NCBI RefSeq assembly: GCF_027595985.1
Contig: NC_073305.1
Coordinates: forward strand, 87,910,626-87,974,625
DNA length: 64,000 bases
Direction: 5' to 3'
Source of the DNA: Sorex araneus
Taxonomy: Eukaryota > Chordata > Mammalia > Eulipotyphla > Soricidae
Shown: in pieces, positions 2,128 through 63,620 of the stretch
Layout of the letters: each line of letters begins with the position of its first letter
How positions within the stretch are numbered: the first letter of the stretch is position 1
Position numbers and translations under genes: made by a program
The notes under the pieces: generated by a model
The model's input: only the letters and a program-made list of their open reading frames with translations
Database searches by the model: none
Told to the model about the DNA's origin: nothing

Positions 2128-2253
2128 TAGAGCCTGGCAAGCTACCTGTGGCATATTCGATATGCCAAAAACAGTAACAAGTCTCACAATGAAGATGTTA
2201 CTGGTGCCCGCTTGAGCAAATCGATGAACAATGGGATGACAGTGCTACAGTGC
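2128..2253 (+). mobile_element. Tail-less long-body SINE, 5'-truncated
   Basis: This is the 3' two-thirds of the long SINE form: 'gatatgccaaaaacagtaac', then 'gagcaaatcgatgaacaatg', ending in 'acagtgctacagtgc' with no poly-A. The 7-bp duplication tactgtg (2121-2127 and 2254-2260) fits a target-site duplication, so the 5' truncation probably happened at insertion. Confidence 0.8.
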
Positions 2254-2973
2254 TACTGTGCATGATAAAGGTGGCTTTTGTTCGGGTCACAAAAGTGAGT
2301 TCTGAAAAACATCTGGGGCTAGGGCTGGTTTCTAGTGAAACCAACATGAATAGAGAATTGAGGTGAGAGGGTCTAAGATGGACTTCCCTTGCAATGGTCC
2401 AAACCTTCGTACCATAATGAGGCTCCCTAAAAATCTAAGAGGAGGGGCTTGTGAGTGAACCTGCAAAATTGAGGGAGCTACTCCCCATACTTCACCCTAT
2501 GTGCCTATTCCCATGAGTGATAGCATTTCTGAGAAATCAATACTCGAGTGAGTAAACGGGCTTCCGAGTTCTGTGTGCCAGCCACAAGTGAAGCAAAACT
2601 TCTGGGGAGCCTCTCATCTATTGCTGGTCAGAAAGAAGCACAGACAGTAGTGTGGGCATGTGGTAGGGTATCTAAGGTCTGAATAAAGTCAGGGGAACCC
2701 CCATTTAGGAGCCTGTTGGTCAAAAGCCCCTTGCCTGAGGTAAAGTAGACTGAAGTGAAGACAGTCTGGGGAGATTTTTGCCCCTTATCTGTGAAACCTG
2801 ATGCCATTTCTGGGCAAATAGTGTAGAGTACTGACTTGAATTGAATTGAATTTCTGGAAATCTGTTGGTGCCTGAGCAATGGTCTTTGATGTGGGGAGAC
2901 CTCCCACACCGAAGTTGCAACTGAGCTGCATGACCTCAAGTATACACCTTCTAGACAGAAGAATAAGAACTGT

Positions 2974-4138: not shown

Positions 4139-4318
4139 TTTATTTGTTTATTTTTTGCTTTTTGGGTCACACCTGGCAGTGCACAGGGGTTACTCCTGGC
4201 TCTGCACTCAGGAATTACACCTGGCGGTGCTCAGGGGACCATATGGGATGCTGGGATTTGAACCTGGGTCAGCTGCATGCAAGGCAAACGCCCTACCCGC
4301 TGCGCTATCACTCCAGCT
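4139..4318 (-). mobile_element. SOR-type SINE, minus strand
   Basis: Full-length. It is flanked by a 17-bp target-site duplication with one mismatch, cctgaaaccacatttta (4122-4138) and its partner at 4319-4335. It sits at the edge of an older decayed SINE head (about 4060-4122). Confidence 0.92.
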
Positions 4319-9650: not shown

Positions 9651-10020
9651 CTGTGGTGAATTAAAAAAGATTTAAAAATAAAAAGGTTAAGCTGAAATGC
9701 AAAATCTGGGTCTGTGAGGTAGGCAGGTGCTGGCCATGAGTGTGGCACTTCATGATTTCCCAAGAACCACTGGAGTAACTGTCAAGTGCTATGCACCGAT
9801 GGGTGCATCACCCCCCCACACACCCGTATATTAAATGCAAAGCTCATAAGTGATCTGAAATTTTGAATCAGTTTCATCAAATGCCGAACTTGTGTGATAG
9901 TTTTTTAAAGTTGCGTAGAACCTGGTAATGATGATTTTTTTTGAGAGGTAAGGATGAAAGTATTTATTAAACATAATTTACCCTTCCTTCTCAAAAGCAG
10001 GTTTTAATACAATCTGAATA

Positions 10021-10268
10021 GCACTGTAGCACTGTCGTCCAGTTGTTCATCGATTTGCTCGAGTGGGCACCAGTAACGTCTCCATTGTGAGACTTGTTGT
10101 TACTGGTTTTGGCATATCGAACATGCCACGGGGAGCTTGCCAGGCTCTGCCGTGCGGGCAAGATACTCTTGGTAGCTTGCGGGGCTCTCCGAGAGGGATG
10201 GAGGAATTGAACCTGGGTTGGCTGCGTGCAAGGCAAACGCCCTACCTGTTGTGCTATTGCTCCAGCCC
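10021..10268 (-). mobile_element. Tail-less long-body SINE, 3' half of 5S chimaera
   Basis: Read on the minus strand it begins 'gggctggagcaatagcacaac' and keeps the B box (GGTTCAATTCC). It continues with the long body and ends 'acagtgctacagtgc' with no A-tail. Its 5' end joins 5S rRNA sequence directly. The target-site duplication (10009-10020 and 10387-10398, acaatctgaata) encloses both parts, so they moved as one RNA. Confidence 0.9.
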
Positions 10269-10388
10269 TTAGGCCTACAGCACCCGGTATTCCCAGATGG
10301 TCTCCCATCCAAAAACTAACCAGGCCCGACCCTGCTTAGCTTCCGATCAGATGAGATCAGGCACGTTCTGGGTGTTATGGCTGTAAAC
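10269..10388 (-). pseudogene. 5S rRNA-derived sequence fused to SINE
   Basis: About 120 bp, close to full 5S length. The minus strand reads 'gtttacagccataac' through 'ggtcgggcctggttag' and 'tggatgggagacc' to 'gggtgctgtaggcct', matching the vertebrate 5S order. Differences include a short deletion in the 'tctgatcggaag' segment and the change of 'agtacttgg' to 'agtttttgg'. The region of the 5S internal promoter (A box, intermediate element, C box) is largely kept. The T-run terminator is absent and transcription would run into the SINE. This is a retroposed copy, not a genuine 5S gene, because it sits inside a shared target-site duplication. Confidence 0.92.
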
Positions 10389-10549
10389 AATCTGAATATG
10401 ACAGAAAATCTTGCTATTCATTCTTTATAGAGTTCCACATCATCAATCCTCAAAAGAAATTTCTCCTGTTCCTGGAAGTGGCTCATGCAAAGAGTAATTG
10501 ACATGGAAGGTCTAAGGAACACAAATATGTATGAATATTTTGGGGGGCT

Positions 10550-21825: not shown

Positions 21826-22115
21826 GATAGCGCAGTGGGTAGGGCATTCACCTAGCATGCAGCTGACCCGGGTTCAATTCCTCTGCCCCTCTCGGAGAGC
21901 CCAGAAAGCTACCGAGAGTATCTCGTCCACATGGCAGAGCCCGGCAAGCTACCGAGAGTATCTCGTCCGCATGGCAGAGCCTGGCAAGCTACCCGTGGCA
22001 TATTCAATATGCCAAAAGCAGTAACAACAAGTTTCACAATGGAGGGAGACGTTACTGGTGCTCGCTCGAGCAAATCGATGAACAATGGGATGACAGTGAC
22101 AGTGACGGTGACAGT
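21826..22115 (+). mobile_element. Tail-less long-body SINE with internal duplication
   Basis: A near full-length long form: head 'gatagcgcagtgggtagg', B box GGTTCAATTCC, then the long body, ending in a short (GTGACA)n run with no A-tail. A unit of about 40 bp ('agctaccgagagtatctcgt'...) is tandemly duplicated at about 21908-21987. Confidence 0.9.
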
Positions 22116-29737: not shown

Positions 29738-30690
29738 CGACTACCATAGTTTTGACGGAAAAAACCAGTGTGCAAAGTTTGAGGGGAGATGCATGGTATC
29801 CATTAATTCATGTGATCTTCCCCGACCTCAATATCCACCCCCCCACTTCATTCACTATTGCCTCCAGATTTTATAATACCAGACAGCATCTTTCACCACA
29901 CCACAAGAAATGAGCTTAAAATCCAACTAAAGAGACCAGACTTAAGGATCCAAATTCTTACTAGGGTGTCAACGACTACTAGGACATACCTTGGAAATGA
30001 GAAAGAGAAGCACAGGCAGCTGGATCCAGAGAAAATAGGGAAATGATCAAGGGCAATTTGAGGGTACCCATATTCAGCCCTGGAAGTTTGGCTGGGCAGG
30101 CCTAGATGTGATCCCCCCAAAGCTGAGGCTGGCTGAGTGGAGCTAAGAAAGTCTCTTCCCCTGCTGTGTGGAGATTGTAAGAATCTGCCAGGGGCGGGGG
30201 TGGGGAGAGAGGCTGGCTGCAGACAGATCGTGCCAGATGGCAGAGCAGTCAAAATATTTCACTGAGGCCCACTCTGTGTTTGGGAAGAGGCTGAGCCTGC
30301 TTCCCACCTCAGACCTCAGTGGGTTCCTGTAACAGTTTCTGGTAACAGTTTCTGGGTCTGCCACCACAGGCCTCGCTGACTCAGGGGCTGACTCAGTCTC
30401 GCTCTCGACGCCTGACACGAATTCACTCTTGGGCCCAGTCTCCTCCCAGGCCTCTAACGGGGAGACGCCGACTGCTGCAAAAGGAGGGTTTTAATTTTGT
30501 TTGGAGGCGATGCTGATACCCAGGGGTCCTCAGCGGCGACTCCCAGCTTGGTGCTTGGAGAATCATGGGTGTGTGTCCTCCATCCTGCTAAGCTGGTGCC
30601 CTTTAAGCCATCTCCCTGGCCCATGAAGATGGGGTCTTGCCTGGATTTCCATGAGGTCAAGTAGCTTCATTTCCATGTGGCATGAGGGGT
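29738..30690. other. Intergenic stretch without recognised feature
   Basis: No exon seen. A weak SINE head relic on the minus strand may lie at about 30540-30620 ('gctaagctggtgcccttt', 'ccatctccctggcc'). Confidence 0.45.
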
Positions 30691-30697
30691 TTGGGGA

Positions 30698-30698
<1 letters not shown>

Positions 30699-30781
<83 letters not shown>

Positions 30782-30805
30782 TAAAAAATTTTATATATAT
30801 ATATA
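30699..30805. repeat. (CA)n and (TA)n compound microsatellite
   Basis: About 22 CA units, then two TA runs separated by an A-rich spacer. It directly precedes a SINE. Confidence 0.97.
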
Positions 30806-30817
30806 GTGAAGCAAGAT

Positions 30818-30990
30818 CTTTTATTTCTTCTTTTTGGGTCACACCTGGCATTCCACAGGGGTTACTTCTGGCTCTGCACTCAGGAATTACTCCTGGCGGT
30901 GCTCGGGGACCATATGGGATGCTGGGAATTGAACCTGGGTCAACTGCATGCAAGGCAAATGCCCTACCCGCTGTGCTATTGCTCAAGCCC
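30818..30990 (-). mobile_element. SOR-type SINE, minus strand
   Basis: Full-length. 'aagatctttta' before and 'aagatcattttta' after are a likely target-site duplication. Confidence 0.9.
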
Positions 30991-32199: not shown

Positions 32200-32207
32200 C
32201 TACCTGG

Positions 32208-32448
32208 CCTGGACTGGAGCAACAACACAGCGGGTAGGGCTTGCATGTGGCCAACCCGGTTGATTCCTCTGTCCCTCTCAGAGAGCCTGGCAAGCTACCG
32301 AGAGTATCCCACCCGCACAGCAGAGCCTGGCAAGTTCTCCATGGCGTATTCAATATGCCAAACACAGTAACAACAAGTCTCACAATGGAGACATTACTGG
32401 TGCCCGCTCGAGCAAATCGATGAACAACCGGATGATAGTGCTACAGTG
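32208..32448 (+). mobile_element. Tail-less long-body SINE
   Basis: Near full-length: head 'ctggagcaacaacacagcgg', long body, ending 'gatagtgctacagtg' with no A-tail. The 8-bp repeat ctacctgg at 32200-32207 and 32449-32456 is a likely target-site duplication. Confidence 0.9.
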
Positions 32449-32456
32449 CTACCTGG

Positions 32457-34309: not shown

Positions 34310-34485
34310 GGGGCTAGAGTGATAGCACAGTGGGTGGGGCATTTGCCTTGCACGTGGCAGACCCGGGTTCGATTCCCAGCATTTCATAACCCGCCCCCCG
34401 CCCCCGGCACCACCAGGAATAATTCCTGAGTGTAGAGCCAGGAGTAACCCCTGTGCATTGCTAGGAGTGACCCCCCCCCCAAAAA
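34310..34485 (+). mobile_element. SOR-type SINE in serial insertion cluster
   Basis: Full-length, with a C-rich change before the A-tail. It lies between the second (34297-34309) and third (34486-34498) copies of aaagcacatttgg. Confidence 0.93.
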
Positions 34486-34501
34486 AAAGCACATTTGGTG
34501 G

Positions 34502-34683
34502 GTTTTTTTTTTTTTTTTTTTGGTTTTTGGGTCACACCTGGCGATGCACAGGGGTTACTCCTGGCTCTGCACTCAGGAATTACCCCTCTCGATGCTCAGG
34601 GGACCATATGGGATGCTGGGATTTGAACCCGGGTCGGCCGCGTGCAAGACAAACGCCCTACCCGCTATGCTATCACTCCAGCC
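34502..34683 (-). mobile_element. SOR-type SINE, minus strand, in serial insertion cluster
   Basis: Full-length, with a T20 tract at its plus-strand start. It is bracketed by cacatttggtgg at 34490-34501 and 34684-34695, the same target word used by the two neighbouring insertions. Confidence 0.94.
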
Positions 34684-54925: not shown

Positions 54926-55107
54926 CGGGCTGGAGTGATAGCACAGCAGGTAGGGCATTTACCTGGCACGCAGCCGACCTGGGTTCGATTCCCAGCATCC
55001 CATATGGACCCCCCAACACCGCCAGGAGTAATTCCTGACTGCAGAGCCAGGAATAACCTGTGTGCATCGCCGATTATGACCCCCCAAAAAAAAGCAAAAA
55101 AAAAAAA
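54926..55107 (+). mobile_element. SOR-type SINE, young
   Basis: Full-length with intact A and B boxes, an A tail, and a perfect 12-bp target-site duplication aagaggtaaaga (54914-54925 and 55108-55119). Confidence 0.95.
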
Positions 55108-63436: not shown

Positions 63437-63620
63437 GGGCTGGAGAGATAGCACAGCGGGTAGGGCATTTGCCTTGCACGCAGCCGACCCGGGTTCGATT
63501 CCCAGCATCCCATATGGTCCCCTGAGCACTGAGAGGGATAATTCCTGAGTGCAGAGCCAGAAGTGGCCCCTGTGCATTGCCAGGTGTGACCCCCCAAAAA
63601 AAAGCCAAAGAAAAAAAAAT
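63437..63620 (+). mobile_element. SOR-type SINE, best-preserved reference copy
   Basis: Perfect Pol III A box (TAGCACAGCGGG) and B box (GGTTCGATTCC), then the two body units and the GTGTGACC end with an A-rich tail. Perfect 15-bp target-site duplication aagactgcattccag (63422-63436 and 63621-63635). It lies in ELOVL5 intron 2, antisense to the gene. Confidence 0.96.

Follow-up and report, generated by a model that had tools for sequence, protein, structure and literature searches.

Composite SINE families headed by 5S rRNA, some of which also hold a tRNA-like part, include MEG-TR of fruit bats. No mention of MEG-RS or MEG-RL was found in the literature searched. Further families of this kind, described in the accessible part of PMC3747384, are AmnSINE1/SINE3 (the DeuSINEs) and, with Bov-B, Ped-1 of the springhare. 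The combination of RTE-type LINEs with tRNA or 5S rRNA has been given as an origin of SINEs (Kojima 2018, as cited in the accessible part of PMC13174262).

Closely related structures have been reported for another small RNA, the U6 snRNA, which forms chimaeras with LINEs and SINEs such as Mon-1 in platypus, AnolisSINE2 in lizard and RTESINE1 in opossum (PMC4476161, accessible part). According to the same part of that paper, the elements joined to U6 are of the L1, L2 and RTE types, template switching is invoked, and in its table 49 of the 79 U6 copies analysed in Sorex araneus are fused to a repeat. Human chimaeras of 5S and LINE-1 are known as well, and twin priming was suggested for the antisense cases among them (PMC13174262, accessible part).

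Here we describe a fusion of 5S rRNA and a SINE that lies within a stretch of 64,000 nucleotides of S. araneus DNA (contig NC_073305.1, 87,910,626 to 87,974,625; hereafter the window), and its counterparts at other sites of the same genome. No report of 5S–SINE fusions in shrews was found in titles and abstract openings, in a search that lay mostly outside the subscription literature.

Results

A 5S rRNA copy and a SINE share one target-site duplication

The 5S halves were compared with a tandem 5S rRNA array on contig C9 (about 33.22–33.29 Mb; L016–L040, among other places; unit length about 1.6 kb), the sequence of which was taken as the functional 5S. Of 25 array loci fetched, 24 were identical over 135 bases and the remaining one had a single difference in its flank; the 3′ end reads GTAGGCCTTTT. 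The shrew 5S is identical to what we take to be the human 5S, except near the 3′ end, where it reads GGCCTTTT versus, presumably, GGCTTT in human.

The window copy is one unit within one duplication, in which 5S and SINE follow each other in sense order, with the 3′ end of the 5S and the 5′ end of the SINE nearly intact. From the 5′ to the 3′ side of the element, it consists of:

10387–10398, minus strand: 5′ target-site duplication, TATTCAGATTGT in the sense of the element; its last 2 bp are possibly 5S +1/+2
10271–10388, minus strand: 5S rRNA copy, nt 1–120 of shrew 5S, sense relative to the SINE (Rfam RF00001 and alignment to the genome's own 5S)
10311–10315, minus strand: TTTTT run in the 5S half, from changes at nt 77–78; putative Pol III stop
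10269–10270, minus strand: extra bases AA at the junction of 5S and SINE
10021–10268, minus strand: full-length tRNA-headed SINE, with the tRNA-like head at about 10268–10197 and a tail ending in CAGTGCTACAGTGC, without poly(A)
10009–10020, minus strand: 3′ target-site duplication, TATTCAGATTGT in the sense of the element

At minus-strand positions 10388–10272, the complete 5S model of Rfam (RF00001) scored 82.2 bits, for a gathering threshold of 38 (E 5.9e-16). Relative to the tandem-array 5S, 13 positions were changed over nt 1–120, two deleted bases included. The junction reads ...GTAGGCCT-AA-GGGCTGG..., and since the array 5S ends in GTAGGCCTTTT, the window 5S half is short of the last U residues only. 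An earlier note on this DNA, made from the sequence alone, had described a near full-length 5S joined without linker to the head of a tRNA-derived SINE; the 5S and the order of the two parts were as described, and a linker of two bases, AA, is present.

The same note had enclosed both parts in a single duplication of 10–12 bp, and this was borne out: the 12-bp repeat ACAATCTGAATA (10009–10020 = 10387–10398) is perfect and abuts both ends of the unit. Of 8000 random placements, with 2 bases of slack allowed, two showed a repeat of 12 bp or longer in such a position. The length of the duplication is given as 10–12 bp because 2 bp (GT) at the 5′ end are ambiguous between the duplication and 5S +1/+2. 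Two separate insertions, considered as a candidate, were rejected, as a 601-bp stretch around the unit held only one family of direct repeats of at least 10 bp, at which threshold a shorter inner duplication would go unlisted.

Further 5S–SINE units lie at unrelated sites

As queries against the genome, the whole unit, its portion on the 5S side and another such unit gave 7659, 2171 and 1146 candidates, respectively. At least seven further 5S+SINE units were found at other, unrelated sites, which makes at least eight with the window copy (L001); this number, small as it is, is a lower bound because 40 candidates were scored per search. The further units are:

L002, C10: 5S+SINE unit with the tail type of the window copy
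L003, C6: 5S+SINE unit with the tail type of the window copy
L009, C2: 5S+SINE unit with the tail type of the window copy
L010, C10: 5S+SINE unit with the tail type of the window copy
L014, C4: 5S+SINE unit with the tail type of the window copy
L068, C4: 5S+SINE unit with the tail type of the window copy
L080, C2: 5S joined to an A-tailed shrew SINE, reverse complement 1430–1752, with a perfect 15-bp duplication

In all eight units the 5S comes first and both parts are in sense orientation. The SINE is without poly(A) in seven of them and A-tailed in one (L080). The 5S half starts at nt 1–4 in seven units; in L003 it starts at nt 16, as expected of an incomplete copy in which 5S copying stopped early. 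Exact repeats of at least 10 bp surround both halves in four of the eight units (12 bp in L001, 11 bp in L003, 10 bp in L068 and 15 bp in L080), the chance of such a repeat in that duplication search being 0.6%; the 11-bp repeat of L003 sits in T-rich DNA and weighs less. A duplication of 10 bp with one mismatch was seen in L014. The other three units had no good duplication: none was found in L009 and L010, and in L002 the exact search found none, a poor 12-bp likeness being visible by eye.

The sequences preceding the SINE in the first six units are GGCCT-AA, GGCCTTT-AA, GGCCTTT, GACCTTT, GCTGTA-A and GGCCTTT-G. In L068 the junction is GTAGG, which overlaps the GG of the SINE, and in L080 there are 14–15 bases between 5S and SINE.

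A search of 2.4 Gb for the exact junction pattern gave four matches, namely two true units (the window copy and L003) and two chance matches (L061 and L062); its reversed control gave none in 2.4 Gb. Next to the ordinary SINE, of which three more copies with the same tail lie in the window alone, 5S+SINE units seem rare. The earlier note had reasoned that many copies of the junction with different flanks would mean a composite SINE family, and a single copy a one-off chimaera. The outcome falls between the two: copies with other flanks exist, and their behaviour is not that of a family, the 5S halves appearing to be independent.

The 5S halves show no sign of common descent

Under a family hypothesis, a single fusion would have founded a composite 5S–tRNA SINE, transcribed from the 5S promoter, from which all units descend. 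The seven or more additional units with different flanks agree with it, and so do the junctions in which CCTTT is joined to the SINE directly (L003, L009) or with AA or G between (L002, L014). Changes common to several units point the other way. Identical non-CpG changes shared among the 5S halves numbered 3 in the first six units, versus 3.4 expected (P 0.69), and 6 in all eight, versus 6.8 expected (P 0.70); the 5S halves are thus star-like, with common changes not above chance. The same kind of test gave 40 common changes for the SINE halves of the first six units, versus 8.8 expected, a value reached in none of 3000 shuffles (L068 and L080 entered the 5S test only). For ordinary SINE copies it gave 271 versus 51 expected, in 24 copies. 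The test is therefore able to detect shared descent, and the lack of excess in the 5S halves versus the strong excess in the SINE halves indicates that the halves differ in genealogy. Judging from these comparisons, each 5S half seems to have been derived separately from functional 5S.

Further points against a family are that the junctions vary, that the SINE halves bear changes of different SINE subfamilies, that one unit has an A-tailed SINE, and that only two of the matches to the exact junction in 2.4 Gb are true units. The family hypothesis was rejected on account of the scarcity of exact junctions and the star-like pattern of the 5S halves; we hold it to be very unlikely.

The suggestion in the earlier note that the composite might be transcribed from the 5S promoter was not supported either. 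Pol III stops at a run of four or more T, and it is therefore predicted to stop at the TTTTT inside the window 5S half (10311–10315). A run of at least four T is present within three of the six units tested, which again speaks against a family. Of 73 changes in the first six units, 21 lie in the promoter region (nt 50–92), which makes up 258 of the 705 positions (P 0.18). The region was thus not significantly better preserved than the remainder, and the preservation seen is to be expected of any 5S copy of recent origin.

If the halves entered jointly, they should be of equal age. Against this expectation, the divergences of the 5S and SINE halves did not correlate in the six units (rank correlation 0.09, P 0.87), the SINE reference being biased against older subfamilies. 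The difference was significant in one of the six, L010, with 7.0% for the 5S and 15.2% for the SINE (P 0.04), measured with the same biased reference. The window copy showed 10.8% for the 5S and 6.0% for the SINE (P 0.14), the latter relative to a reference that leans to its own subfamily. This bias toward the window's subfamily may explain part of the age mismatch.

The SINE without poly(A) is probably moved by an RTE-type LINE

Shrew SINEs in the window are of two types, which have the tRNA-like head in common. In the commoner type, the head is followed by the target sequence of published Soricidae primers: the Soricidae SINE primer and probe (PMC8608897, accessible part) matched the window 19 and 18 times with at most three mismatches, where 0.00 and 0.02 matches were expected. 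Such repeats indicate shrew DNA. The SINE of the window unit has a different tail (CAGTGCTA), which ends in CAGTGCTACAGTGC(TA) without poly(A). Three SINEs of this tail type without 5S are present elsewhere in the window:

32206–32451, plus strand: full-length SINE, used as comparison copy
21827–22104, plus strand: SINE with 5′-truncated head
2129–2255, plus strand: SINE tail, 5′-truncated

Part of the tail of the copy at 21827–22104 is seemingly duplicated internally, as judged by eye.

A set of 24 ordinary copies was drawn from the best matches to the window SINE, and its consensus accordingly leans to the window's subfamily; L004, which is partly N, was left out. All 24 copies end in a CAGT(GC) tail of the short tandem-repeat kind, without poly(A), and 16 of them start with GGRCT directly in flanking DNA, without 5S.

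For RTE-clade LINEs and their SINEs, a T stretch about 10 bases, or one helical turn, before the duplication has been described (PMC13295347, accessible part). In ordinary copies with judged duplications, T was found at −11 in 11 of 14 and at −10 in 11 of 14, a small sample in which the positions were picked after looking. These 14 of the 24 copies were kept by reading of the duplications; two low-complexity copies (L044, L047) and eight without clear duplication were dropped, and the L003 row was unused. Only 4 of the 14 delimited copies had a duplication starting with TA. In the window unit, TTTT occupies −10 to −7 and the duplication starts with TA. From these signatures, the SINE without poly(A) was probably moved by RTE-type LINE machinery, which is likely because the lack of poly(A) is accompanied by a T stretch that matches the published RTE signature.

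The window has 87 ORFs of at least 110 aa; in the 10 of them scanned with Pfam, no reverse transcriptase was detected. The SINE tail had no match in viral contigs, nor had three words of it in the literature searched. A strong nested hairpin, CAGTAAC...GTTACTG around GTCTC...GAGAC, is predicted in the tail (10021–10140, minus strand; z −2.99). It might be a recognition signal for the LINE of this SINE.

Two other kinds of small-RNA match were noted in the window. ARAGORN called tRNA-Ala at five places (4243–4315, 34315–34387, 34608–34680, 54931–55003 and 63441–63513), all of which overlap SINE heads; they should be kept out of a tRNA gene annotation. On the minus strand, Rfam gave weak matches, with scores under the gathering threshold, to SCARNA7 (30619–30837, E 1.1e-4) and MIR9486 (34437–34566, E 1.1e-6); a decayed retrocopy or a chance match to a repeat is possible for these.

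A probable jump from SINE RNA to 5S rRNA

Taken together, we think it highly probable that the units arose by recurrent, independent, one-step chimaeric retroposition, in which a LINE reverse transcriptase jumps from SINE RNA to 5S RNA. The LINE enzyme would nick the target and start to copy the SINE RNA from its 3′ end; since a poly(A) tail is missing from this SINE, the enzyme was probably of RTE type. On arrival at the 5′ end of the SINE RNA, it would jump to a second template, a 5S rRNA, and resume at the 3′ end of that RNA. The 5S would then be copied to +1 and the product integrated, leaving a single target-site duplication. The earlier note had proposed that both parts were integrated jointly, either from a single RNA carrying 5S and SINE sequence or by a template switch during reverse transcription; joint integration holds, and of these routes the template switch is preferable.

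If instead 5S RNA and SINE RNA had been joined end to end before reverse transcription, and the fused RNA retroposed, the sense end-to-end structure would be accounted for equally well, and the accessible part of PMC13174262 does give ligation beside template switch for sense chimaeras. The details of the junctions, that is the extra AA, A or G, the GG overlap of L068 and the stop at GCTGTA in L010, suit a jump with untemplated additions or overlap at least as well, and we consider ligation unlikely. That the joining took place by a jump in reverse transcription rather than by prior ligation is something we infer, as is the type of the LINE.

In a third route, a SINE would have landed directly downstream of a 5S gene, such that both were read through into one Pol III RNA, which was then retroposed. 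The spacer of L080 is, by eye, loosely like the 3′ flank of the 5S gene, and this unit was perhaps derived from a read-through 5S transcript. Against read-through as a general explanation stand the 25 loci of about 3.1 kb fetched from the C9 array, in which no match to the SINE, head or whole, was found; moreover, the different SINE subfamilies and junctions would require several such genes. We regard it as extremely improbable.

The jump from SINE RNA to 5S RNA cannot be called general across abundant Pol III RNAs, since an exact junction pattern for U6–SINE, a stringent one, had no match in the genome.

Discussion

The gain of new Pol III heads by SINEs is usually argued from finished families, and the shrew genome shows the raw events: 5S fusions, apparently independent, that front SINEs with either type of tail at their 5′ end. 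With them, the template-jump origin of composite 5S/tRNA SINEs becomes testable within one genome. The repeated joining of 5S, in sense and mostly full-length, to SINE 5′ ends is new as a variant of the U6 chimaeras. It is plausible that such fusions are the seed of 5S-headed composite SINE families, the birth of which they resemble. One may go further and propose that, when an RTE-type reverse transcriptase of the shrew jumps off its SINE RNA at the 5′ end, it consistently favours the 3′ U-tail of 5S rRNA, that 5S-headed composites are thereby seeded continually, and that the window copy is a first step in the birth of families like AmnSINE1 or Ped-1. We put this forward tentatively, as a possibility rather than an expectation.

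Among known systems, the U6 chimaeras are alike in that a single insertion carries a small Pol III RNA 5′ of a LINE or SINE (PMC4476161, accessible part). They differ in that, in the part of that paper accessible, two opossum RTE cases are without clear target-site duplication and have a truncated U6. In platypus, the same part describes almost all U6 parts as 5′-truncated, whereas the shrew 5S starts at nt 1–4 in seven of eight units.

The human 5S/LINE-1 chimaeras likewise unite 5S with a retroelement in a single insertion that has one duplication (PMC13174262, accessible part). Their 5S is typically antisense and truncated, as described there, and the shrew units, in which a mostly full-length 5S is in the sense strand and on SINEs, provide the contrast. 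In the work of Kojima (2018), as cited in the accessible part of PMC13174262, 5S joined to RTE-type sequence is the seed of a SINE, as in the shrew units; however, the SINE families considered there were formed from a LINE, whereas in the shrew the 5S fronts an existing tRNA-headed SINE, and does so repeatedly.

The 5S-headed families AmnSINE1/SINE3 and Ped-1 resemble the shrew units in having a 5S head and a LINE-type tail, and Ped-1 also in the combination of 5S with RTE-type machinery (PMC3747384, accessible part). AmnSINE1/SINE3, Ped-1 and MEG-TR are amplified families, whereas each of the shrew units seems newly arisen.
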